Positions 6,065 to 27,939 of a stretch of 64,000 nt of DNA are shown here, piece after piece. The DNA is from Pseudomonadota bacterium. Lineage in GTDB: Bacteria; Pseudomonadota; Gammaproteobacteria; Nitrosococcales; Methylophagaceae. The stretch's first letter is position 1, and every line of letters starts with the position of its first letter. A program made the translations under genes and the position numbers. The stretch covers positions 1 through 64,000 of the forward strand of contig JALIBN010000004.1 in assembly GCA_030576275.1 (NCBI GenBank), written 5' to 3'. A model generated the notes under the pieces. The model did no database searches, was not told where the DNA came from, and saw only the letters and a program-made list of their open reading frames with translations.

Positions 6065-6087
6065 ATTAGGTTTCAATTTAACGAGCC

Positions 6088-6251
6088 GTAGGTCGGGTTT
6101 CAACCCGACGGTTATTCGTCGTTCATGTTGGGTTAAAACCCAACCCACAACATTCTCCGTAGGTCGGTTTTCAATCCGATGTTTATTCGTCATTCATGTT
6201 GGGTTAAAACCCAACCCACAAAATGCCTCGTAGGTCGGGTTTCAACCCGAC
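6088..6251. repeat. REP/BIME palindrome cluster between flgL and fliC1
   Basis: Five short palindromes lie in a row. Type A is GTCGGGTTTCAACCCGAC preceded by GTAG (6088-6109, a degenerate copy at 6159-6180, and 6230-6251). Type B is GTTGGGTTAAAACCCAAC followed by CCAC (around 6125-6149 and 6197-6220). A and B alternate with spacers of about 15-20 bases, the layout of bacterial interspersed mosaic elements. Each can fold into a short hairpin. They match the palindromes that flank the RAYT genes at 8579 and 11494, which probably mobilised them. Confidence 0.85.
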
Positions 6252-6470: not shown

Positions 6471-8330
6471 ATGGCTTCAGTAATCAATACCAATGTTGCA
6501 TCTTTAAATGCACAGCGGAACCTTACAAGCTCGCAATCAGACCTTGCTACTTCACTTCAGCGTTTATCATCTGGCTTACGCATCAACAGTGCCAAAGATG
6601 ATGCGGCAGGTCTTGCGATTTCAGATCGTTTCACCACGCAAATTCGTGGTTTAAATCAAGCGTCACGTAATGCTAATGATGCGATCTCACTATCGCAAAC
6701 TGCTGAAGGTGCGCTGGGTGAAGTAACCAGTAACTTACAACGGATTCGTGAATTGGCCGTGCAATCTGCCAATGCGACCAACTCATCTTCTGATCGTGCA
6801 GCATTGGATTTAGAAGTACAGCAACGCTTATCTGAAATTGATCGAATTTCAAGTCAAACTTCATTTAATGGTCAAAAAATTCTCGATGGTACATTTGGTC
6901 AGGCGGCCTTCCAAGTGGGTGCTAATGTCGGTGAAACAATTACTTTAGATTTAAGTACCAGTATGCGGCCTAATACAATAGGTCGATTGGCAGAAGTGAC
7001 GTCTGGATTTAACTTGAATTCACTCGCAAGTGACGAGCCTACTCCAGCGGTATACAATTCAGCGCCTATTACACCTTTTGATTTCAGTACTGTTCCTGCA
7101 GAACTAGGCACATCAACTGTTGCAGTAACTACAGCCGCTGTAGCAGGTGATAGCATTGATATTAATGGTGTTACATTTACTTTCGCTCAGGGGGCTGCAA
7201 ATATATCGGTTACTAGTGCAACCAGCGTAACTATCACTGGTGATATTTCTACTACCCCATTAACCCCAACTACGACAGCATCTCAGTTAGATGCAGCCAT
7301 TGATGCATACATAGCTGATGTTGGGAGTGCTGATGCAAGATTAGATGACATCACACCAAGCAATGGCACAGGTACGCTCACACTGACATATGCAACGGCG
7401 GGCTTACCGAGTGATAACAATACTATTACTGTTGGCGCTGGTAGCACATTAGCTGCGACTATTGCTGTAGACGCAACAGGTTCCAACGTAGGTGAAGATA
7501 TTGTCGTGGGAACCACAACAGTCAATCTTTCAACAAGTATTACATCTGCAGATGACTTAGTAAGTGTTATTAACGCAGCATTGGTCGCAGCAGGTGATAC
7601 CAGTGTCATTGCTAGTGCAGGACCCGATGACTCGCTAATTTTAACAACGAGCGATACAGGAACAACTATCGCAATACCAACGCCGGTCCCCACGGCTGGT
7701 GACACAAATGCTGTTGCCTTAATTGGTGCTACAAATGCGACTTCATCCCATGCTGGGTTGGCAGCTGCAACACTAAATATTGCAGTAGGTGATTTTAGTA
7801 TTCAATTAGGTGACTCAACTGCAGTGACGGTCTCAGGTGAGTTTACGACTGCACAATCTATTGTTGATGCTGTTAATGGCGCATTAGCAGGTAATGCAAC
7901 TGCACAGTTAAATGATGACGGCACCATGAGTATATTTTCTGCCCAAGATGTGACCATCACTGGCACGGATGGTTTAACAACGCTAGGCTTGGCGGCATCA
8001 ACACTGGCTGATGGAAGTCTGATTGGTAGCAACATCTTAGATGTTAACTCTTCAAATGAGATTATCCGTCGCCTTGATTCAGCGCTAACATCAATAAGCG
8101 ATTTGCGCAGTACCTTTGGTGCGATTCAAAACCGTTTTGAATCAACGATTAGTAACCTGGGCACTGCGGTTGAGAATTTAAGTGCGGCACGTAGTCGAAT
8201 TCTGGATGCTGACTTTGCAGCAGAAACAGCGGCACTAACGCGTGCTCAAATATTGCAACAAGCAGGTACCGCGATGTTATCGCAAGCGAATGCGATACCT
8301 CAGAATGTATTGAGTTTGTTACAAGGTTAA
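6471..8330 (+). CDS. fliC: Flagellin FliC1 (619 aa, large central domain)
   Basis: This is the filament subunit exported by the flagellar type III system. The N-terminal D0/D1 part ([18 protein letters not shown], then [20 protein letters not shown] and a [19 protein letters not shown] stretch) and the C-terminal D1/D0 part ([33 protein letters not shown], end LSLLQG) are fully canonical. The roughly 350-residue centre is Thr/Ala/Val/Asp-rich and contains repeated strand-like stretches of the kind seen in flagellin hook-IN motifs. The ATG has AAGGA about 10 bases upstream. From base 6576 onward the gene is identical to fliC2. It appears to be driven by sigma-54 (site at 6369). Confidence 0.96.
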
Positions 8331-8363
8331 ACTCGTAGATCGGTTTTTTGTTTATTACACTGC

Positions 8364-8546
8364 GTAGGTCGGGTTTCAACCCGACGGATAGTAGCGAACT
8401 CATGTTGGGTTAAAACCCAACCCATGGCTGAATAATTAGAACCCAACCTAATATTATGTAGGTTGGGTTCTAATTATTCCACTGCGTAGTTCGGGTTTCA
8501 ACCCGACGAATAGTAGCAAATCATGTTGGGTTAAAACCCAACCCAC
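8364..8546. repeat. REP palindrome cluster downstream of fliC1 (RAYT-proximal side)
   Basis: Alternating type A (8364-8385, variant at 8485-8507) and type B (8402-8423, 8522-8546) palindromes surround a longer perfect inverted repeat at 8431-8478. The cluster sits between the fliC1 stop and the RAYT stop, so both converging genes end in hairpin-rich RNA that could stabilise or terminate transcripts. Confidence 0.85.
8431..8478. repeat. Perfect 20-bp inverted repeat with 8-base loop
   Basis: The left arm (8431-8450, beginning AATAATTAGAACCC) and the right arm (8459-8478) are exact reverse complements around the loop ATATTATG. It is longer than the neighbouring REPs and shares only the ACCCAACCTA core with them. 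No run of T follows, so it is not a standard intrinsic terminator. A second copy is at 11346-11393. Confidence 0.9.
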
Positions 8547-8578
8547 GAACTTGAAAATACTTTAACCCGACGATAAAT

Positions 8579-9034
8579 TTACAACCAAACACTATCCCAA
8601 TGCGGCCAATTGGCTAGTTTTTTAACCAAACCCGCTCTTAATGGGTTGGCAACAATATAGCGAGCAATTGCTAGCCGATCTTCCTCTTTTCTTAGGGCGT
8701 GGTCATGAAAGCCCGCTTGCCAGATTGAACCTGTGCGATTTAACTGCTGATTAATCCCTTTGGCACTATGACCTTTAACTAATTTCATAATCTGAGCTAA
8801 ATCATGCTCATCAGCATTTTGCAAGTGCAATAAGCCATGAAAATGATCGGGCATAATCACCCAGCACATCCATTGGCATTGATGGTGCTGTTCGCTTTCA
8901 CGTAAGGTATTGATAAGCATACGAGCACAGCTAAAGTCATTAAATAGGGCTGTGCGGTGGTGGGTCACCGAGGTGATAAGATATTCACGGCCAGTTTCAG
9001 AAAATCGTCCTTTGCGGAGATCGTTACAGCTCAT
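8579..9034 (-). CDS. REP-associated tyrosine transposase (RAYT), copy 1
   Basis: The 151-residue protein belongs to the Y1/HUH transposase family (IS200/IS605-like, Transposase_17). The HUH motif lies in MPDHFHGLLHL (about residues 62-72), and the catalytic Tyr is expected in the ARYIVANPLRAGLV stretch near residue 127. RAYTs cut and join single-stranded REP hairpins and are domesticated, usually single-copy elements. REP palindromes flank this gene on both sides (8364-8546 and 9101-9234), forming a typical REP-RAYT unit. It is transcribed against the flagellin genes. The duplicate at 11494 is identical. Confidence 0.9.
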   Translation of the reverse strand: MSCNDLRKGRFSETGREYLITSVTHHRTALFNDFSCARMLINTLRESEQHHQCQWMCWVIMPDHFHGLLHLQNADEHDLAQIMKLVKGHSAKGINQQLNRTGSIWQAGFHDHALRKEEDRLAIARYIVANPLRAGLVKKLANWPHWDSVWL

Positions 9035-9100
9035 TGATTACATCCTTGTAGTAATGATGAGTTGATTTTATGTTGATGGGGATTAGATTACCATCTATAT

Positions 9101-9234
9101 GTAGGTCGGGTTTCAACCCGCTGGTTGGTAGCGAATAATGTTGGTCTGAAGTCCAACCTACAATGAATAGCCGTAGGTCGGGTTTCAACCCGACAGGTAG
9201 TGGCAAATCATGTTGGGTTAAAACCCAACCCACG
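9101..9234. repeat. REP palindrome cluster upstream of RAYT copy 1
   Basis: Two A/B pairs are present: A at 9101-9120 (imperfect right arm), a B variant at about 9138-9161 (GTTGG-GTCTGAAGT-CCAAC type), A at 9173-9194 and B at 9210-9234. They lie between the RAYT start codon and the fliC2 promoter. Confidence 0.82.
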
Positions 9235-9269
9235 ATATTCAACTCCACAAATTAAAATTGAAAAAAGGC

Positions 9270-9296
9270 TAAAGTTATTCCACCCATAGTCGTTAA
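9270..9296 (+). promoter_or_regulatory. Candidate sigma-28 (FliA) promoter of fliC2
   Basis: TAAAGTTA (9270-9277), an 11-base spacer, then GTCGTTAA (9289-9296) fits the FliA consensus TAAAGTTT-N11-GCCGATAA with three mismatches in 16. It lies about 90 bases before the ATG and has an exact copy before fliC3. Confidence 0.75.
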
Positions 9297-9385
9297 CGTA
9301 TCCGGAAGCAGTGAATACAACACATTAAGATGTATATCTGCTATTTACGAAAGGGTTGACACCCACTCACTATGGAGAAAATGTC

Positions 9386-11245
9386 ATGGCTTCAGTAATC
9401 AATACCAACGTTGCATCTTTGAATGCACAAAAAAATCTAACGCAATCACAAAATGCGCTTGCAACTTCTTTGCAACGGTTATCATCTGGTTTACGCATCA
9501 ACAGTGCCAAAGATGATGCGGCAGGTCTTGCGATTTCAGATCGTTTCACCACGCAAATTCGTGGTTTAAATCAAGCGTCACGTAATGCTAATGATGCGAT
9601 CTCACTATCGCAAACTGCTGAAGGTGCGCTGGGTGAAGTAACCAGTAACTTACAACGGATTCGTGAATTGGCCGTGCAATCTGCCAATGCGACCAACTCA
9701 TCTTCTGATCGTGCAGCATTGGATTTAGAAGTACAGCAACGCTTATCTGAAATTGATCGAATTTCAAGTCAAACTTCATTTAATGGTCAAAAAATTCTCG
9801 ATGGTACATTTGGTCAGGCGGCCTTCCAAGTGGGTGCTAATGTCGGTGAAACAATTACTTTAGATTTAAGTACCAGTATGCGGCCTAATACAATAGGTCG
9901 ATTGGCAGAAGTGACGTCTGGATTTAACTTGAATTCACTCGCAAGTGACGAGCCTACTCCAGCGGTATACAATTCAGCGCCTATTACACCTTTTGATTTC
10001 AGTACTGTTCCTGCAGAACTAGGCACATCAACTGTTGCAGTAACTACAGCCGCTGTAGCAGGTGATAGCATTGATATTAATGGTGTTACATTTACTTTCG
10101 CTCAGGGGGCTGCAAATATATCGGTTACTAGTGCAACCAGCGTAACTATCACTGGTGATATTTCTACTACCCCATTAACCCCAACTACGACAGCATCTCA
10201 GTTAGATGCAGCCATTGATGCATACATAGCTGATGTTGGGAGTGCTGATGCAAGATTAGATGACATCACACCAAGCAATGGCACAGGTACGCTCACACTG
10301 ACATATGCAACGGCGGGCTTACCGAGTGATAACAATACTATTACTGTTGGCGCTGGTAGCACATTAGCTGCGACTATTGCTGTAGACGCAACAGGTTCCA
10401 ACGTAGGTGAAGATATTGTCGTGGGAACCACAACAGTCAATCTTTCAACAAGTATTACATCTGCAGATGACTTAGTAAGTGTTATTAACGCAGCATTGGT
10501 CGCAGCAGGTGATACCAGTGTCATTGCTAGTGCAGGACCCGATGACTCGCTAATTTTAACAACGAGCGATACAGGAACAACTATCGCAATACCAACGCCG
10601 GTCCCCACGGCTGGTGACACAAATGCTGTTGCCTTAATTGGTGCTACAAATGCGACTTCATCCCATGCTGGGTTGGCAGCTGCAACACTAAATATTGCAG
10701 TAGGTGATTTTAGTATTCAATTAGGTGACTCAACTGCAGTGACGGTCTCAGGTGAGTTTACGACTGCACAATCTATTGTTGATGCTGTTAATGGCGCATT
10801 AGCAGGTAATGCAACTGCACAGTTAAATGATGACGGCACCATGAGTATATTTTCTGCCCAAGATGTGACCATCACTGGCACGGATGGTTTAACAACGCTA
10901 GGCTTGGCGGCATCAACACTGGCTGATGGAAGTCTGATTGGTAGCAACATCTTAGATGTTAACTCTTCAAATGAGATTATCCGTCGCCTTGATTCAGCGC
11001 TAACATCAATAAGCGATTTGCGCAGTACCTTTGGTGCGATTCAAAACCGTTTTGAATCAACGATTAGTAACCTGGGCACTGCGGTTGAGAATTTAAGTGC
11101 GGCACGTAGTCGAATTCTGGATGCTGACTTTGCAGCAGAAACAGCGGCACTAACGCGTGCTCAAATATTGCAACAAGCAGGTACCGCGATGTTATCGCAA
11201 GCGAATGCGATACCTCAGAATGTATTGAGTTTGTTACAAGGTTAA
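9386..11245 (+). CDS. fliC: Flagellin FliC2, a chimera of fliC3 5' end and fliC1 body
   Basis: This 619-residue flagellin has the same domain layout as FliC1 and differs from it at four residues only, all in the first 24 (R16K, S20Q, S23N, D24A). The upstream region and first 66 coding bases are identical to fliC3. From 9491 on, the gene is identical to fliC1. The 39 bases between (9452-9490) match neither. I chose the ATG at 9386, which has GGAG 11 bases upstream and gives the conserved MASVINTN start; an in-frame TTG at 9356 is not needed. The sigma-28 site at 9270 should drive it. Confidence 0.95.
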
Positions 11246-11278
11246 ACTCGTAGATCGGTTTTTTGTTTATTACACTGC

Positions 11279-11461
11279 GTAGGTCGGGTTTCAACCCGAC
11301 GGATAGTAGCGAACTCATGTTGGGTTAAAACCCAACCCATGGCTGAATAATTAGAACCCAACCTAATATTATGTAGGTTGGGTTCTAATTATTCCACTGC
11401 GTAGTTCGGGTTTCAACCCGACGAATAGTAGCAAATCATGTTGGGTTAAAACCCAACCCAC
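11279..11461. repeat. REP palindrome cluster downstream of fliC2
   Basis: Exact copy of the cluster at 8364-8546, including the 20-bp perfect inverted repeat (here 11346-11393). Confidence 0.85.
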
Positions 11462-11493
11462 GAACTTGAAAATACTTTAACCCGACGATAAAT

Positions 11494-11949
11494 TTACAAC
11501 CAAACACTATCCCAATGCGGCCAATTGGCTAGTTTTTTAACCAAACCCGCTCTTAATGGGTTGGCAACAATATAGCGAGCAATTGCTAGCCGATCTTCCT
11601 CTTTTCTTAGGGCGTGGTCATGAAAGCCCGCTTGCCAGATTGAACCTGTGCGATTTAACTGCTGATTAATCCCTTTGGCACTATGACCTTTAACTAATTT
11701 CATAATCTGAGCTAAATCATGCTCATCAGCATTTTGCAAGTGCAATAAGCCATGAAAATGATCGGGCATAATCACCCAGCACATCCATTGGCATTGATGG
11801 TGCTGTTCGCTTTCACGTAAGGTATTGATAAGCATACGAGCACAGCTAAAGTCATTAAATAGGGCTGTGCGGTGGTGGGTCACCGAGGTGATAAGATATT
11901 CACGGCCAGTTTCAGAAAATCGTCCTTTGCGGAGATCGTTACAGCTCAT
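11494..11949 (-). CDS. REP-associated tyrosine transposase (RAYT), copy 2
   Basis: The 151-residue product is identical to that of the gene at 8579, with the same HUH motif (DHFHG) and the ARYIVANPLRAGLV segment. It was copied as a passenger of the flagellin duplication, not by its own transposition: the duplicated block begins and ends inside flagellin genes, not at REP sequences. Two identical adjacent RAYTs are unusual, because these genes are normally single-copy. Confidence 0.9.
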   Translation of the reverse strand: MSCNDLRKGRFSETGREYLITSVTHHRTALFNDFSCARMLINTLRESEQHHQCQWMCWVIMPDHFHGLLHLQNADEHDLAQIMKLVKGHSAKGINQQLNRTGSIWQAGFHDHALRKEEDRLAIARYIVANPLRAGLVKKLANWPHWDSVWL

Positions 11950-12015
11950 TGATTACATCCTTGTAGTAATGATGAGTTGATTTTATGTTGATGGGGATTA
12001 GATTACCATCTATAT

Positions 12016-12149
12016 GTAGGTCGGGTTTCAACCCGCTGGTTGGTAGCGAATAATGTTGGTCTGAAGTCCAACCTACAATGAATAGCCGTAGGTCGGGTTT
12101 CAACCCGACAGGTAGTGGCAAATCATGTTGGGTTAAAACCCAACCCACG
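12016..12149. repeat. REP palindrome cluster upstream of RAYT copy 2
   Basis: Exact copy of the cluster at 9101-9234, between RAYT copy 2 and the fliC3 promoter. Confidence 0.82.
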
Positions 12150-12184
12150 ATATTCAACTCCACAAATTAAAATTGAAAAAAGGC

Positions 12185-12211
12185 TAAAGTTATTCCACCC
12201 ATAGTCGTTAA
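12185..12211 (+). promoter_or_regulatory. Candidate sigma-28 (FliA) promoter of fliC3
   Basis: Same TAAAGTTA-N11-GTCGTTAA as before fliC2. It is probably the ancestral promoter from which the fliC2 copy derives. Confidence 0.75.
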
Positions 12212-12300
12212 CGTATCCGGAAGCAGTGAATACAACACATTAAGATGTATATCTGCTATTTACGAAAGGGTTGACACCCACTCACTATGGAGAAAATGTC

Positions 12301-13779
12301 ATGGCTTCAGTAATCAATACCAACGTTGCATCTTTGAATGCACAAAAAAATCTAACGCAATCACAATCTTCACTTGCTACATCTTTGCAACGTTTATCAT
12401 CAGGCCTACGTATCAATAGTGCTAAAGATGATGCGGCAGGTCTTGCGATTTCAGATCGTTTTACCACACAAATTCGTGGTTTAAACCAAGCGGGCCGTAA
12501 TGCTAATGATGCGATTTCACTTTCTCAAACCGCTGAAGGCGCGTTGAGCGAAGTAACAAGCAACTTACAACGTATTCGTGAATTAGCAGTGCAATCTGCC
12601 AATGCGACTAACTCGTCATCTGATAGAGCAGCGCTTGATTTAGAAGTACAACAACGTTTAGCTGAAATTGACCGTATTTCAAGCTCAACCTCATTTAATG
12701 GCCAAAAAATCCTTGATGGCACCTTTGGTAATGCGGCCTTCCAAGTAGGCGCTAATGTCGGTGAAACCATTTCATTGGATTTGACAACTAGTATGCGTCA
12801 GGCATCTATTGGTGACATCGCTAGTACCACTTCAACGGGTGCTGCGGCTGATTTCACTGCTGTTGCCGCCACGACAGGAGCGCTAGGGACTTTTACCGCT
12901 ACTTCTGGTGCATCTGTAATTGGTCAAAACTTCACGTTAGCTGTTGACGGCGTTGATATTGTTAACTTTACAGCAACTGGCACTAGTGATGTTGTTGATG
13001 CTGCTTTCATAGATGGTGCGAGTGGGCTTGGTAATGCAACTGTGCAAGCCAATTTAGCAGCCGCTGGCATTACGGTTTCAGGTACAGCAAGTCTTAATAC
13101 TTTGGCATTCTCAAGAGCAGACGGCGTTAACTTTGATACCACATTAGTGAGTGACTTGGGTGCAACAACTCAGGGTGCTTTTACCAATCTCGCTGAAGGT
13201 GCGACTTTAACTACAACTGACGGTGATCCTGCCGGCATTACATTGGCTTCTGGTGACTTGAGTATTGCAGTTGGTACTGGAGCAGCAGTTGAAATTACAG
13301 GCACATTTGCCAATGCTGATGAGTTAATTGCTGCAATTAATAATGTTGATGGTGCGGTTGCCTCTTTAAGTGGTTCAGAAGTTAAAATTATTGCATCGGC
13401 TGATTTGACGATTTCGGGTAATAACACTCTTGGACTGGCAACGGCAACAGTAGCGGCAGATACTACTGGTTTAAGTGCAACTACCGTTGATAGTGTTGAT
13501 AGCGCCAATGAAACAATTTTACGAATTGATGCCGCCTTAGGTGCCGTGAGTGACTTACGTAGCACCTTTGGTGCGATTCAAAACCGTTTTGAATCAACCA
13601 TTAGTAACTTAAGTACAGCGGTTGAGAACTTAAGTGCTGCACGTAGTCGTATTCTTGACGCGGATTTCGCGGCAGAAACAGCAAACTTAACACGTGCTCA
13701 AATATTGCAACAAGCGGGTACTGCCATGTTGGCACAAGCGAACTCTTTACCACAAAACGTATTGAGTTTATTGGGCTAA
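12301..13779 (+). CDS. fliC: Flagellin FliC3 (492 aa)
   Basis: FliC3 has conserved D0/D1 ends ([36 protein letters not shown]; end LSLLG) and a central domain unrelated in sequence to that of FliC1/2 and about 125 residues shorter (about 175-400). Filaments made of these genes could therefore present at least two different surfaces. The ATG at 12301 has GGAG 11 bases upstream. Sigma-28 control is likely (12185). A strong hairpin follows the stop codon, then flaG. Confidence 0.96.
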   Translation: MASVINTNVASLNAQKNLTQSQSSLATSLQRLSSGLRINSAKDDAAGLAISDRFTTQIRGLNQAGRNANDAISLSQTAEGALSEVTSNLQRIRELAVQSANATNSSSDRAALDLEVQQRLAEIDRISSSTSFNGQKILDGTFGNAAFQVGANVGETISLDLTTSMRQASIGDIASTTSTGAAADFTAVAATTGALGTFTATSGASVIGQNFTLAVDGVDIVNFTATGTSDVVDAAFIDGASGLGNATVQANLAAAGITVSGTASLNTLAFSRADGVNFDTTLVSDLGATTQGAFTNLAEGATLTTTDGDPAGITLASGDLSIAVGTGAAVEITGTFANADELIAAINNVDGAVASLSGSEVKIIASADLTISGNNTLGLATATVAADTTGLSATTVDSVDSANETILRIDAALGAVSDLRSTFGAIQNRFESTISNLSTAVENLSAARSRILDADFAAETANLTRAQILQQAGTAMLAQANSLPQNVLSLLG

Positions 13780-14241: not shown

Positions 14242-14296
14242 GTCGGGTTGAAACCCGACCTACGGTGGGCGAATGTAGGTTGGTGTTAATCCAACA
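14242..14296. repeat. REP pair between flaG and fliD
   Basis: An inverted type A copy (GTCGGGTTGAAACCCGAC, 14242-14259, followed by CTAC) is followed by a degenerate type B (about 14274-14296). They match the RAYT-linked palindromes. Confidence 0.75.
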
Positions 14297-14316
14297 TTTA
14301 GGAAGAGGTATAGAAA

Positions 14317-15719: not shown

Positions 15720-15783
15720 GTAGGTCAGGTTTCAACCCGACGGCTAGAGCCACATATCATGTTGAAAAGAATTGTAGCCTACA
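15720..15783. repeat. Degenerate REP pair after fliD
   Basis: The type A copy at 15720-15741 has one changed base in its left arm (GTCAGGTTTCAACCCGAC). The type B partner (about 15758-15783) keeps only its outer arms (ATGTTG and GTAGCCTAC). This is the last REP in the locus. Confidence 0.6.
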
Positions 15784-16648: not shown

Positions 16649-18407
16649 ATGAGTGTAATCAATACTAATATTTCATCTTTAAACGCTATGCGCCAGCTTA
16701 ATAGCAATAGCAATGTGATGACACAAACTCTACAGCGTTTATCTTCTGGCTTACGTATTAATAGTGCCAAAGATGATGCCGCTGGTTTGGCGATTAGTGA
16801 ACGATTTACGACTCAAATACGTGGCCTTCAACAGGTCGGACGTAATACCAATGATGCAGTTTCTCTGGCTCAAACGGCTGAAGGTGCCTTGGCTAGCTTA
16901 TCTGAATTAATGCAACGTGGACGAGAGCTTGCCGTGCAGGCCGTTAATGCGACAAATTCAACCTCAGATCGTCAAGCTCTGCAAAAAGAAATCTCCCAGA
17001 TCCAATCAGAAATAGGTCGGGTAACCCGCGATACCTCATTTAACTCAATCAGCCTATTCCAGCCTCTCGGAGCAACCGGTGGATCGTCATCATTTTCTGA
17101 TACTGAAAATAGAATACTGACTGATTCACAGAGTACTTGGTTACAACAAAGTGAAAAAATAATTAAAGATTATTATGGGTTGCAAGCCACTAAATTCTGA
17201 GTTGAAAATTATTTTTGATGATGGAACCGTCGTTAGCGGTGCTGATGCCTATGTAATTAGTAATTCACCTTATCCTGACACCACGCTTGAACTACATTTT
17301 AATGTTGCCACTATTAAATCTGCCTATGATGCTGGCGGTGAAGAAGCAGTTGGTAATTTAGTTGCTCATGAAATGACACATGCCGTCATGGGGGCAACGA
17401 CCAATTTAGGCTCATTTTCAAGATGGTTTATAGAAGGTTCCGCTCAGTTTATTGAAGGTGGCGATCCTAATTTAGCTAATGCTTATGCGAATAATGGCAA
17501 TAACGTAACTGCATCAGATGCTATTGCTAATAATATTGATAACGCAGGCGTTATACCAGGATCTTGGCCTGTTACAGAGTTAAACTATGGAACGGCCTAT
17601 GCAGCAACACGCTATCTTGATTATCTAACAACAAATGAATATACAACATCTGATGGTATAAAAAGTGTTATGAATTATCTAAGTTCTGATGGTGGCACGC
17701 ATACTTTAGATCAATACTTTGCTCAAGCTGGTCTGAAAAATGAGAGCGGTGGAGACATTACTAGCGAAGCTGATTTTGTAGCAGCATTCAAGGCTGATGG
17801 TGATGAGTTCATTGATACTGTTTTACAGCCCACATTTTCTAATGGTGCTGCTGATATTGGTGGTGTCGGTGGCTCTGATGCTGTCGGCGACCCAACAGGC
17901 GCAAGTGGAATACGTGATACCTCGTATGCGGGTGCAGTGCCGAATATTACGAATTTAACGGACAATCCACTGCTTGGGTTTTTAGAAATATATCCTACTG
18001 ATAATAAGATATTAGCTTCTTCAACGATGACATTTCAAGTTGGTAGTAATGTCGGTGAAACGATTGACGTTAGCCTTACTAGTTTGAGTTTGGAAGATTT
18101 AAATTTAGATGCCTTAGATGTAGTGAGTCTTGGCAATACTGCGATCACGGCATTTGATAGTGCATTAAATAATGTAAGTACTATACGTGCCCAGTGGGGT
18201 GCGGTTCAAAATAGACTTGAATCTGTATTGGCTGTAACAGCAACGGGTATTGAAAACTTATCAGCAAGTCGTTCAAGAATTATGGACGCAGACTTTGCAA
18301 TTGAAACGGCCAATTTAACCCGGGCTCAGATTATGCAACAAGCAGGTTCGGCCATGTTGGCGCAGGCTAATTCATTACCCCAACAGGTATTAAGCTTATT
18401 AGGATAG
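16649..18407 (+). pseudogene. Flagellinolysin: flagellin with inserted zinc peptidase, split by a frameshift
   Basis: Frame 16649-17200 encodes a flagellin N-terminus ([40 protein letters not shown]) and the linker to the peptidase domain, then stops after [10 protein letters not shown]. The frame from 17163 to 18407 continues with the peptidase domain and an intact flagellin C-terminus (QWGAVQNRLESVL, IMDADFAIETANLTRAQI, LSLLG). The peptidase has the gluzincin motif HEMTH at 17367-17381 and the downstream WFIEGSAQFIEGGD that supplies the third zinc ligand Glu. This is the architecture of proteolytic flagellins (flagellinolysins). The two frames are both open only in 17163-17197, so one extra base there (or loss of two) explains the break; dropping one A gives [15 protein letters not shown]. 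It may be a real inactivation, a sequencing error, or a +1 frameshift site. It follows fliST and probably shares their sigma-28 transcript. Confidence 0.9.
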
Positions 18408-18563
18408 TCATTAAAAAGCATTATTTTTAGCCCATTTATTTATAGCTAAAATGAAGTGTGTCATTTTTTTGACAATCAATAAAAAAGGTGGTTAACTCTT
18501 GGCTTGCGAATTACTTATGTCGTGCTATTCGATGTAATATTAACTTCAATGGCTGGAGCGAAA

Positions 18564-20033: not shown

Positions 20034-20530
20034 CGTTTACACCTCGTTTTATAAAGCCAGTCAGTGCTTTGAGTCCTAGCTAATAGATTGGTATAAATCA
20101 TCGCTTTTAGATGGCGATGTATTGTAGACATGTTTGTTGCCCATATTAACGAAGAGACATTAGTTGTTATGGGGGAGGAAGTATCAACGAAACATGAGTA
20201 GGCGGGGAGTAATGCCTAGCGTTTAGTTCACCCCCCGTGCGTGTCCCTGCCGCTTTGAATAATAATTCGAGTGAACATCATTGATATGTCTTTAGATGTA
20301 TTAGCCTGTGGCGTAATTGTAGTGAATCTTGATGCCGATCCTTGAACGTCAAAATGCTGTCAGTGAGCATGACGTTGATCATAGTTTAAATGATGATATA
20401 CGTAGCCATGATCAACGCCATATTATTGAATCATCAGAAAACAATAATGGTGCTAGACACCCTACGGCTAACGACTTAGATATAAGATTATGCGATTTAG
20501 AGAGCAATGTGTTGAGATTCCAGAGAAGGT
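20034..20530 (+). other. 497-base gap between fleQ and the fliE promoter; no secure gene
   Basis: In Pseudomonas-type loci fleS and fleR occupy this place. Here no long frame exists. A 19-codon frame at 20286-20345 (MSLDVLACGVIVVNLDADP) resembles the start of the PAS segment of FleS-type sensor kinases, and may be a remnant. A frame at 20329-20553 (74 codons, hydrophilic, no known motif) runs through the sigma-54 promoter of fliE, so I do not call it. FleQ or other enhancer sites may lie here but I cannot identify them. Confidence 0.45.
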
Positions 20531-20546
20531 TGGCAAGAAGTCTGCA
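20531..20546 (+). promoter_or_regulatory. Candidate sigma-54 promoter of fliEFGHIJ
   Basis: TGGCAAGAAGTCTGCA has GG (20532-20533) and GC (20544-20545) 10 bases apart and differs from the consensus TGGCACG-N4-TTGCA at few positions. The start site would be near 20557, 27 bases before the fliE ATG. Confidence 0.75.
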
Positions 20547-20583
20547 TAAGTAAGGTTAACCAAAGAATTACTGGAGAACCATA

Positions 20584-26233: not shown

Positions 26234-26688
26234 GGTTGGCGCTATAACTTTTAGCTCCCAAATCTTTGGTCTATGCGTAAAGTAAAGCTTATTAAATTAT
26301 CTGGCACGGTCTATGCGTTGTAGTTACAGCATAGTGTGAAAAGTATGACTCGGAAAGAGCTATAGATCATAAAAATAATTGCGTGGCAGGAGACTGGCAA
26401 AAATAACCGATTTATGTTTGCTGAAAAGTCGCTCAGTCACCAAGGATGTTGGAGCGAAATACACGCACAGATTGTGGTTATCTTAAATGTGATTGAGAAA
26501 AAGGGAATAAGTAATGTCTGACAAAAAAATAAAGGCAATAGACGGTGGTGAGCCATTAGAAATCAGCAATATGGGTAAGTTATTGATTGCCGATAATCAT
26601 AGCGGGAATAGTGTTATTGAGTTTTACATCTATAGTGTATTAATTATCGAGGCGCGGGGTTAAGCCCTAGTAGTTAGAAGTTATAACA
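26234..26688 (+). other. 455-base gap between fliJ and the ParA gene
   Basis: It holds a sigma-54 promoter (26302-26316) and a 49-codon frame at 26514-26663 (MSDKKIKAIDGGEPLEISNM at its start) that I cannot identify and that has only a weak purine-rich stretch (AAAGGGAATAA) in front. If expressed, the small peptide would be made from the same transcript as the ParA gene. Nothing else was recognised. Confidence 0.45.
26302..26316 (+). promoter_or_regulatory. Candidate sigma-54 promoter upstream of the ParA gene
   Basis: TGGCACGGTCTATGC carries the full TGGCACG -24 element with GG (26303-26304) and GC (26315-26316) 10 bases apart. The start site would be near 26328, about 360 bases before the ParA ATG, with the small frame at 26514 in between. 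Confidence 0.65.
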
Positions 26689-27447: not shown

Positions 27448-27868
27448 TGGAAGAAAATAACACCCCTAGGATACAAGGCCTTAGCGGAGTTAACGTAAGG
27501 AGAAGAGCTTCAGTATCAGTTTAAGCAAGTAGTCGCTCAGAAATCTTCAGAAAGAAGATGCCATTGATTCCGTCGAAAAGTTCAAAAAGACAAAATAGAT
27601 GTGGCGTTACTAGATGAGATTTTTACCACAAGTGTTCACTAACGCTTTTGTATGATTAGGTTGTCTATTGATAATTTAAATAACTTCATTGCGAGCGGAT
27701 ATGCCTAGGAATGCTTTAGCGCATGGGCCAAATGGTATGGGAACAAGTATAAAGGGCTTTGCCGAAGATTATGACTTGGGAGGTCAGCGCTTAAGGGAAT
27801 GGAAAGAAGCTCATATTAATATTGTGCTACACCATCTCTCTACGTTGTCTACAGTTAAAATTCATGGT
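27447..27868 (+). other. Gap between the ParA gene and fliK with degenerate coding traces
   Basis: An ATG at 27447 overlaps the ParA stop (TGATG) and opens a 25-codon frame. In another frame, 27470-27643 reads as protein-like text interrupted by stops (YKALAELT, GEELQYQFKQVVAQKSSE, DKIDVALLDEIFTTSVH), which looks like a decayed gene. A 72-codon frame at 27689-27907 has no recognisable motif and runs through the fliK promoter, so I do not call it. Confidence 0.4.
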
Positions 27869-27884
27869 TGGCATATTGATTGCT
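27869..27884 (+). promoter_or_regulatory. Candidate sigma-54 promoter of fliK
   Basis: TGGCATATTGATTGCT has GG (27870-27871) and GC (27882-27883) 10 bases apart and a perfect TTGCT -12 box, the same form as the fliC1 site. The start site would be near 27895, 45 bases before the fliK ATG. Confidence 0.75.
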
Positions 27885-27939
27885 TACTGAGTTGTATAAG
27901 TAAGTGAAACGGCATCAAAATGACGCTACAGGAGACCGT

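Follow-up and report, generated by a model that had tools for sequence, protein, structure and literature searches.

The REP-associated tyrosine transposases (RAYTs) are described as vertically inherited, single-copy genes (PMC8049555), and the term REPtron, adopted here, is used in PMC6006769. The majority of REP families are spread throughout the genome (PMC3733652), and the literature treats local REPtrons as exceptions (PMC2817692, PMC8266576). In the portions of these papers drawn on here, REPs accumulated near the RAYT are reported from three marine gammaproteobacteria and from Thauera, and preferential REP formation near the RAYT after its transfer is proposed (PMC2817692, Nunvar 2010); the same accumulation in Marinomonas is taken as a mark of recent arrival in a paper that regards the mechanism of REP dissemination as still to be elucidated (PMC8266576, Corneloup 2021). 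Both the REPtron as a kind and the accumulation of REPs close to a RAYT are therefore already published, as these excerpts make clear. A REPtron in a flagellin locus, or local clustering followed through several species, was not found in the literature surveyed, which consisted mostly of titles and the first lines of abstracts and is weak evidence of absence.

The locus described here lies in a stretch of 64,000 nucleotides (the window) and is laid out in Table 1. By its sequence, the minus-strand gene downstream of the first flagellin gene is a REP-associated tyrosine transposase, a domesticated transposase, located between flagellin genes. The NCBIfam model NF047646 (REP_Tyr_transpos) scores 154.5 bits against a cut-off of 80, placing the protein in the REP-associated class, and the IS200 model reaches 28.4 bits, below its own cut-off of 55. 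Pfam Y1_Tnp gives 42 bits, and the closest solved structure is 4er8, TnpA_REP (E 7.6e-9). The HUH residues (H64, H66), Tyr126, W105/Q106/R115, and N130 are invariant among six RAYTs and align with TnpA_REP in 4er8. Within that set of sequences and that alignment, the catalytic HUH and Tyr and the guide-binding residues are thus all retained; the roles assigned to them are those given in the part of PMC6006769 consulted. The gene also has inverted palindromes tagged GT(A/G)G on both flanks. A single RAYT per genome for its REP type is typical of the class, though not defining, and is what the three relatives G001, G027, and G021 possess (one RAYT each); the window departs from it, carrying two identical copies by way of a tandem duplication.

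The alternation of two palindromes on each flank of the RAYT, reported in a first-pass annotation of the window, is borne out by REP mapping: REP A (GTAGGTCGGGTTTCAACCCGAC) alternates with an inverted REP B (GTGGGTTGGGTTTTAACCCAAC). Searches were carried out with the degenerate pattern GTRGGTYRGGTTNNAACCYRAC at 0 or up to 2 mismatches. At up to 2 mismatches the window contains 20 REPs, all between 6088 and 15741, and the rest of the 64 kb is free of them, in agreement with the same annotation. The further copies it placed at 6088-6251, 14242-14296, and 15720-15783 are present (14242-14263 exactly, 15720-15741 with one mismatch), but its list omits the identical REP-RAYT-REP unit at 11279-12148. 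It also confined the copies to spacers between flagellar genes. Within the window this holds, yet more distant spacers of the flagellar stretch (18408-18503, 20034-20583, 26234-26688, and 27448-27903) are free of REPs (0/4). When spacers of at least 60 bp between ORFs of at least 90 aa are compared, a REP is found in seven of eight at 5-16.5 kb and in none of 20 elsewhere in the window (Fisher P 6.8e-6), two of the seven being duplicates.

Table 1. Features of the RAYT and flagellin locus, in positions of the window
Feature	Coordinates	Strand	Remarks
REP group, flgL-fliC1 spacer	6088..6251		A+ 6088, B- 6127, B- 6198, A+ 6230, degenerate A between; fold of 6084-6152 z -2.8
Flagellin gene 1	6471..8330	+	619 aa
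Tandem duplication unit 1	6576..9451	+	flagellin 1 body, REP-RAYT-REP, flagellin leader
Two REP pairs, 3' side of RAYT copy 1	8364..8546		A+ 8364, B- 8404, A+ 8486, B- 8525; DNA fold z -2.9, -2.6
RAYT gene copy 1	8579..9034	-	151 aa; NCBIfam NF047646, Pfam Y1_Tnp, structure 4er8 match
REPs, 5' side of RAYT copy 1	9101..9233		A+ 9101 (2 mismatches), A+ 9173, B- 9212; DNA fold z -3.9
Flagellin gene 2	9386..11245	+	hybrid: first 66 bp as gene 3, 39 bp own, body as gene 1
Tandem duplication unit 2	9491..12366	+	exact match to unit 1
REPs, 3' side of RAYT copy 2	11279..11461		duplicate
RAYT gene copy 2	11494..11949	-	100% identity to copy 1 over 151 aa; within exact tandem duplication
REPs, 5' side of RAYT copy 2	12016..12148		duplicate
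Flagellin gene 3	12301..13779	+	492 aa
REP and partner, flaG-fliD spacer	14242..14302	-	14242-14263 exact; same place in G001; DNA fold z -3.2
REP and degenerate partner, fliD-fliS spacer	15720..15783	+	15720-15741 one mismatch to A; five A-type copies there in G001

Five REP stretches give DNA fold z values of -2.6 to -3.9, one of them, the second pair within 8364-8546, folding as one long stem rather than as two hairpins. The search pattern does not constrain hairpin pair 7-20; of 119 copies (those in stretches retrieved from six genomes), 115 have C-G or T-A there, where 66.5 would be expected with independent arms. Such covariation suggests that the hairpins are kept up. The elements therefore have the hallmarks of REP/BIME/REPIN sequences, being extragenic tagged palindromes with hairpin upkeep and inverted pairs; the genome-wide dispersal that is typical of these families, though not defining, is replaced here by a largely local distribution.

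The source genome (G000, 2.37 Mb in 34 contigs) contains 21 REPs that fit the pattern without mismatch: 14 at 6088-15741 on contig C4, five on C16, and one each on C22 and C23. Allowing up to 2 mismatches raises the count to 31, of which the window accounts for 20. At most 4 kb separates 14 of the 21 zero-mismatch REPs from a RAYT copy; counted as sites without the duplicate, the figure is five of eight. Among 57 genomes of the family that were searched, a RAYT of at least 74% identity occurs in the window genome and in three others, G001 (92%), G027 (79%), and G021 (74%). REP copies within 11 kb of the RAYT number 14/21 in G000, 17/22 in G001, 15/24 in G027, and 19/40 in G021. Counted as sites, with the window duplicate removed, the figures are 5/8, 5/8, 7/14, and 7/20 in the same order (binomial P 4.2e-9 to 2.7e-11), for a radius picked after the data had been viewed and with the relatives' genome sizes rounded. 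If REPs within 600 bp of the RAYT are left out, excluding both RAYT copies of the window, 3/6, 3/6, 5/12, and 5/18 sites remain close, with P of 2.4e-5, 1.6e-5, 6.6e-8, and 5.5e-7. Radii of 1, 6, and 25 kb yield P values of at most 2.0e-4 in all four RAYT-bearing species. The four are kin and several of their REP-bearing spacers are common by descent, so that the clusterings are not independent tests. Outlying sites exist in all four genomes, and beyond 11 kb they make up 13/20 in G021 and 7/14 in G027. An even spread over the genome, which the first-pass annotation had set beforehand against its own idea of local spread from the RAYT unit, is rejected by the counts in G000 and the three relatives. 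Of that idea the local accumulation stands in all four genomes; the outward movement of copies from the RAYT is something that we infer.

Contig C22 of the source genome (L062) also encodes a second RAYT-like protein at 2017-2433, with 28% identity and 77.6 bits to NF047646 (cut-off 80), and a REP pair adjoins this gene at 2758-2803. A link between the REPs and this second RAYT type is unsupported: G003, G006, G011, G013, G020, and G025 carry RAYT-like genes (27-32% identity) and have zero REPs by the 0-mismatch pattern.

Three of the closest relatives have the RAYT beside flagellin genes, so that the check on relatives suggested in the first-pass annotation came out in its favor. It is situated between two flagellin genes in G001 and G027, and in G021 its neighbors are a flagellin and, on the opposite side, a porin-like gene; it was not found in G004 and G026 of the same clade. 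G021 is informative on what the REPs follow. Its flgH-flgL-fliC block is on a contig other than that of the main flagellar cluster (L161, contig C11, 6339-14562) and has a single REP, and the genes now adjoining the RAYT (by eye DhaL-like, MazF/PemK-like, and a porin) have REPs beside them. In G004, a REP lies close to this MazF-like gene, and the contig concerned yielded no RAYT. Because the farther flagellar spacers of the window are REP-free and the non-flagellar RAYT neighbors of G021 have REPs (a single case), the sequence comparison favors nearness to the RAYT over flagellar function as the predictor of REPs. No REP is present at the ends of the displaced G021 block at up to 4 mismatches, and its relocation by REP-to-REP rearrangement is rejected on that ground.

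A match to FliD was found in 18 genomes, and 12 flagellar regions were mapped (G006, G014, G015, G019, G020, and G024 were left out). Eight examined relatives share the flagellar cluster but have no RAYT within it, and in all eight the cluster contains no REP at up to 2 mismatches. Across the genus, REPs without mismatch occur in eight of 29 genomes: G021 (40), G004 (25), G027 (24), G001 (22), G000 (21), G026 (9), G008 (1), and G028 (1). A midpoint-rooted tree built on seven flagellar proteins of 14 genomes groups the six REP-rich ones as a clade (support 79), the position of G026 resting on a single protein and that of G004 on five. All four genomes with this RAYT fall in that clade. G004 and G026 have no RAYT of this type that we could find, yet they contain 25 and 9 pattern REPs on 15 and 6 contigs, of which 8/25 and 3/9 are by flagellar genes. 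The flagellar contig of G004 breaks off inside a flagellin at one end and within REPs at the opposite end, and an assembly gap may hide the RAYT there.

Other RAYTs behave differently. G017 and G008 encode RAYTs of 48-50% identity with their own palindrome type beside them and no flagellin within the 3.4-kb loci around the gene. Their palindrome is dispersed, with 1/9 and 1/11 sites within 11 kb of the RAYT (P 0.08 and 0.12), counted at up to 2 mismatches vs none for the four species; at 1 kb these genomes, too, have a REP at their RAYT (P 0.009 and 0.014). Outside the family, a related pattern has 77 matches scattered across many contigs in the L064 genome (60% RAYT relative), and in the L065 genome (55%) seven of eight such matches are on one contig, by coordinates the RAYT contig; both counts allow up to 1 mismatch and both genomes are fragmented. 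Since different RAYTs have either dispersed or local REPs, locality is a feature of certain RAYTs only.

We consider that the locus is probably a REPtron (a RAYT that is chromosomal and vertically inherited, together with the cognate REPs), in which the RAYT makes cognate REPs nearby and the flagellar genes are affected by its position. By analogy with its relatives, for which this activity is known, the RAYT would cut single-stranded REP hairpins tagged GTAG or GTGG and rejoin them, and this cutting and rejoining would seed and renew REP pairs. New or renewed pairs would mostly end near the RAYT, so that out to about 11 kb many longer spacers contain REPs, and later change would consist mostly of gain and loss of tandem REP units in spacers that already bear them. 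The copies would then be the work of the RAYT itself, with distance limiting its reach. The RAYT would have come to lie among flagellin genes in the ancestor of the clade, and the REPs would not be flagellar elements as such. Counting against this reading are the outlying sites in all four genomes, the pattern REPs of G004 and G026, and the REP pair beside the second RAYT-like gene.

Three other explanations overlap in part, so that the likelihoods we attach to them are not meant to sum to one. The REPs may be under selection, their hairpins behind flagellar stop codons tuning mRNA ends or supercoiling in strongly expressed genes, with the RAYT nearby by chance. None of the window REPs is inside an ORF of at least 90 aa and several begin soon past a stop codon; several spacers retain REPs across species, and the hairpin arms covary, all of which speak for such selection. 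Against it, the eight related clusters lack these REPs, and four of their spacers (from three genomes) are without a perfect 7-bp hairpin. The REP-free distant spacers of the window's flagellar region count against it as well, as do the REPs by non-flagellar RAYT neighbors in G021, where the displaced flgH-fliC block has only one. We regard this explanation as unlikely.

Comparison of the sister species G000 and G001 bears on how the arrays change. Their common spacers carry REPs, and the arrays differ in length. The fliD-fliS spacer has one A-type copy in G000 vs five in G001, the cysS-folD spacer seven units vs two (one of the two interrupted), and the nusB-thiL spacer two vs five, degenerate units included; flaG-fliD is the same in both. 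The non-flagellar names cysS, folD, nusB, and thiL are presumptive. Behind a cysS-like gene, at L061 3318-3798, seven REP units of about 77 bp stand in tandem. The aligned differences between the sisters are mostly gains and losses of tandem units, and the candidates examined for a clean pair of empty and filled sites (flgI-flgJ and a spacer on G001 contig C56) did not provide one. The flgI-flgJ spacer has a REP in G001 and, with 2 mismatches, in G027 and none in the window genome, which looks like decay or loss in the window given its presence in the other two. The REP-bearing spacer on C56, the one candidate insertion, shows an ambiguous indel rather than a clean empty site.

The locus also bears a duplication made by recombination, which the first-pass annotation overlooked: 2876 bp are repeated exactly at an offset of 2915 (Table 1). 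The junction is inside flagellin coding sequence, at codons 23-35, and not in a REP. The 39 bp at 9452-9490 match neither neighbor exactly and are by eye closer to the gene-3 type of G001, and this private stretch makes a simple assembly error less likely. In G001 the RAYT is single and the tandem duplication absent. The hybrid second flagellin fits the outcome of unequal crossing-over between flagellin coding sequences, as far as its composition tells, and the REPs are passengers of the duplication. REP-mediated duplication of the flagellin genes is rejected, as the junction is in flagellin coding sequence and the 39 bp match neither neighbor. The earlier proposal that REPs promote rearrangement of flagellin genes accordingly found no support, the single visible duplication breaking in flagellin coding sequence.

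Tandem-unit changes and a recombination-made duplication are what might be expected if ordinary recombination, slippage, or gene conversion had multiplied the REPs locally and the RAYT were no longer active. The RAYT nevertheless remains under strong purifying selection with its catalytic residues retained, and the six REP-rich genomes are one clade that includes all four RAYT-bearing genomes; both observations speak against an inactive RAYT, and we give this explanation little credence. Between the window RAYT and that of G001, dS is 0.40, close to the values of five neighboring genes (0.35-0.40); it rises to 1.6 for G027 and 1.95 for G021, which approaches saturation, and over the four species it ranges from 0.4 to 2.5 with one pair saturated. 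Five of the six RAYT pairs give a dN/dS of 0.07-0.09 (the sixth is not computable), with slightly lower values of 0.01-0.08 for the neighbors. On these substitution rates, the RAYT has long been kept under selection. That it was acquired lately and its REPs have lacked time to spread, as the consulted parts of Nunvar 2010 and Corneloup 2021 interpret local accumulation, is very improbable here, since a RAYT beside flagellins in four species (dS 0.4 to 2.5, dN/dS <0.1) and a REP-rich clade with support 79 oppose it, and persistence across species with near-saturated synonymous divergence makes recent arrival alone insufficient.

The REPtron reading can be carried a step further, with a good deal more doubt. 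Locality might be a lasting property of this RAYT rather than a stage after arrival, the enzyme having renewed REPs mainly on DNA close to its own gene, for example in cis, since the ancestor of the clade. If true, lasting cis-like locality would mean a permanently repeat-marked flagellin neighborhood.

Several features of the surrounding flagellar region were recorded along the way. The gene names from flgH to flrA are presumptive, based on our own reading of the translations. Beyond flrA, FliE, F, G, H, J, and K were checked with Pfam, as were the ends of a fourth flagellin; for FliI the Pfam models found there are ATP synthase and T3SS ATPase. The fourth flagellin (16649-18407) occupies two overlapping frames, 16649-17200 and 17175-18407, for which Pfam yields only Flagellin_N and Flagellin_C. 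The split may be a frameshift, a sequencing error, or a real break. By eye, the second frame contains an HEMTH motif, of the type seen in flagellins with a peptidase domain. Between flrA and fliE (20034-20583), flrB and most of flrC are missing, with flrC-like remnants at 20386-20546 only. Both genes are present at that place in G001 (66% and 77% identity to the G027 versions). A loss of this flagellar two-component pair from the window genome is possible.

In kind, then, the locus is an ordinary REPtron, and what is unusual is how local it is and how long it has lasted. With the REPtrons of E. coli, Pseudomonas, and Stenotrophomonas, as presented in the published excerpts, it shares the HUH and Tyr motif, GT(A/G)G-tagged palindromes, and inverted pairs. 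Their REPs are genome-wide, each type in Stenotrophomonas having 37 to 427 perfect copies (PMC2817692), whereas 21 to 40 pattern copies are found here, about half or more of them near the RAYT. The RAYT of a Thiotrichaceae MAG (CACVAY010000004, L065, 55% identity), from a fragmented genome, has the A palindrome in common. The closest likeness is to the local REPtrons (Nunvar 2010; Ma and Mb of Marinomonas MWYL1, Corneloup 2021), in which, according to the same partial sources, REPs likewise flank the RAYT and are concentrated nearby. Those extend over up to two hundred kb and are read as recent arrivals, compared with about 11 kb here, and unlike them the local state is traced through four species beside flagellins, along with relatives that have no RAYT. 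This puts in doubt whether local clustering should be taken to indicate recent arrival. Whether RAYTs act in cis can be asked in this tractable setting, where the REPs are few and local and can be compared between sister species that carry them, relatives that lack them, and relatives with a dispersed type.
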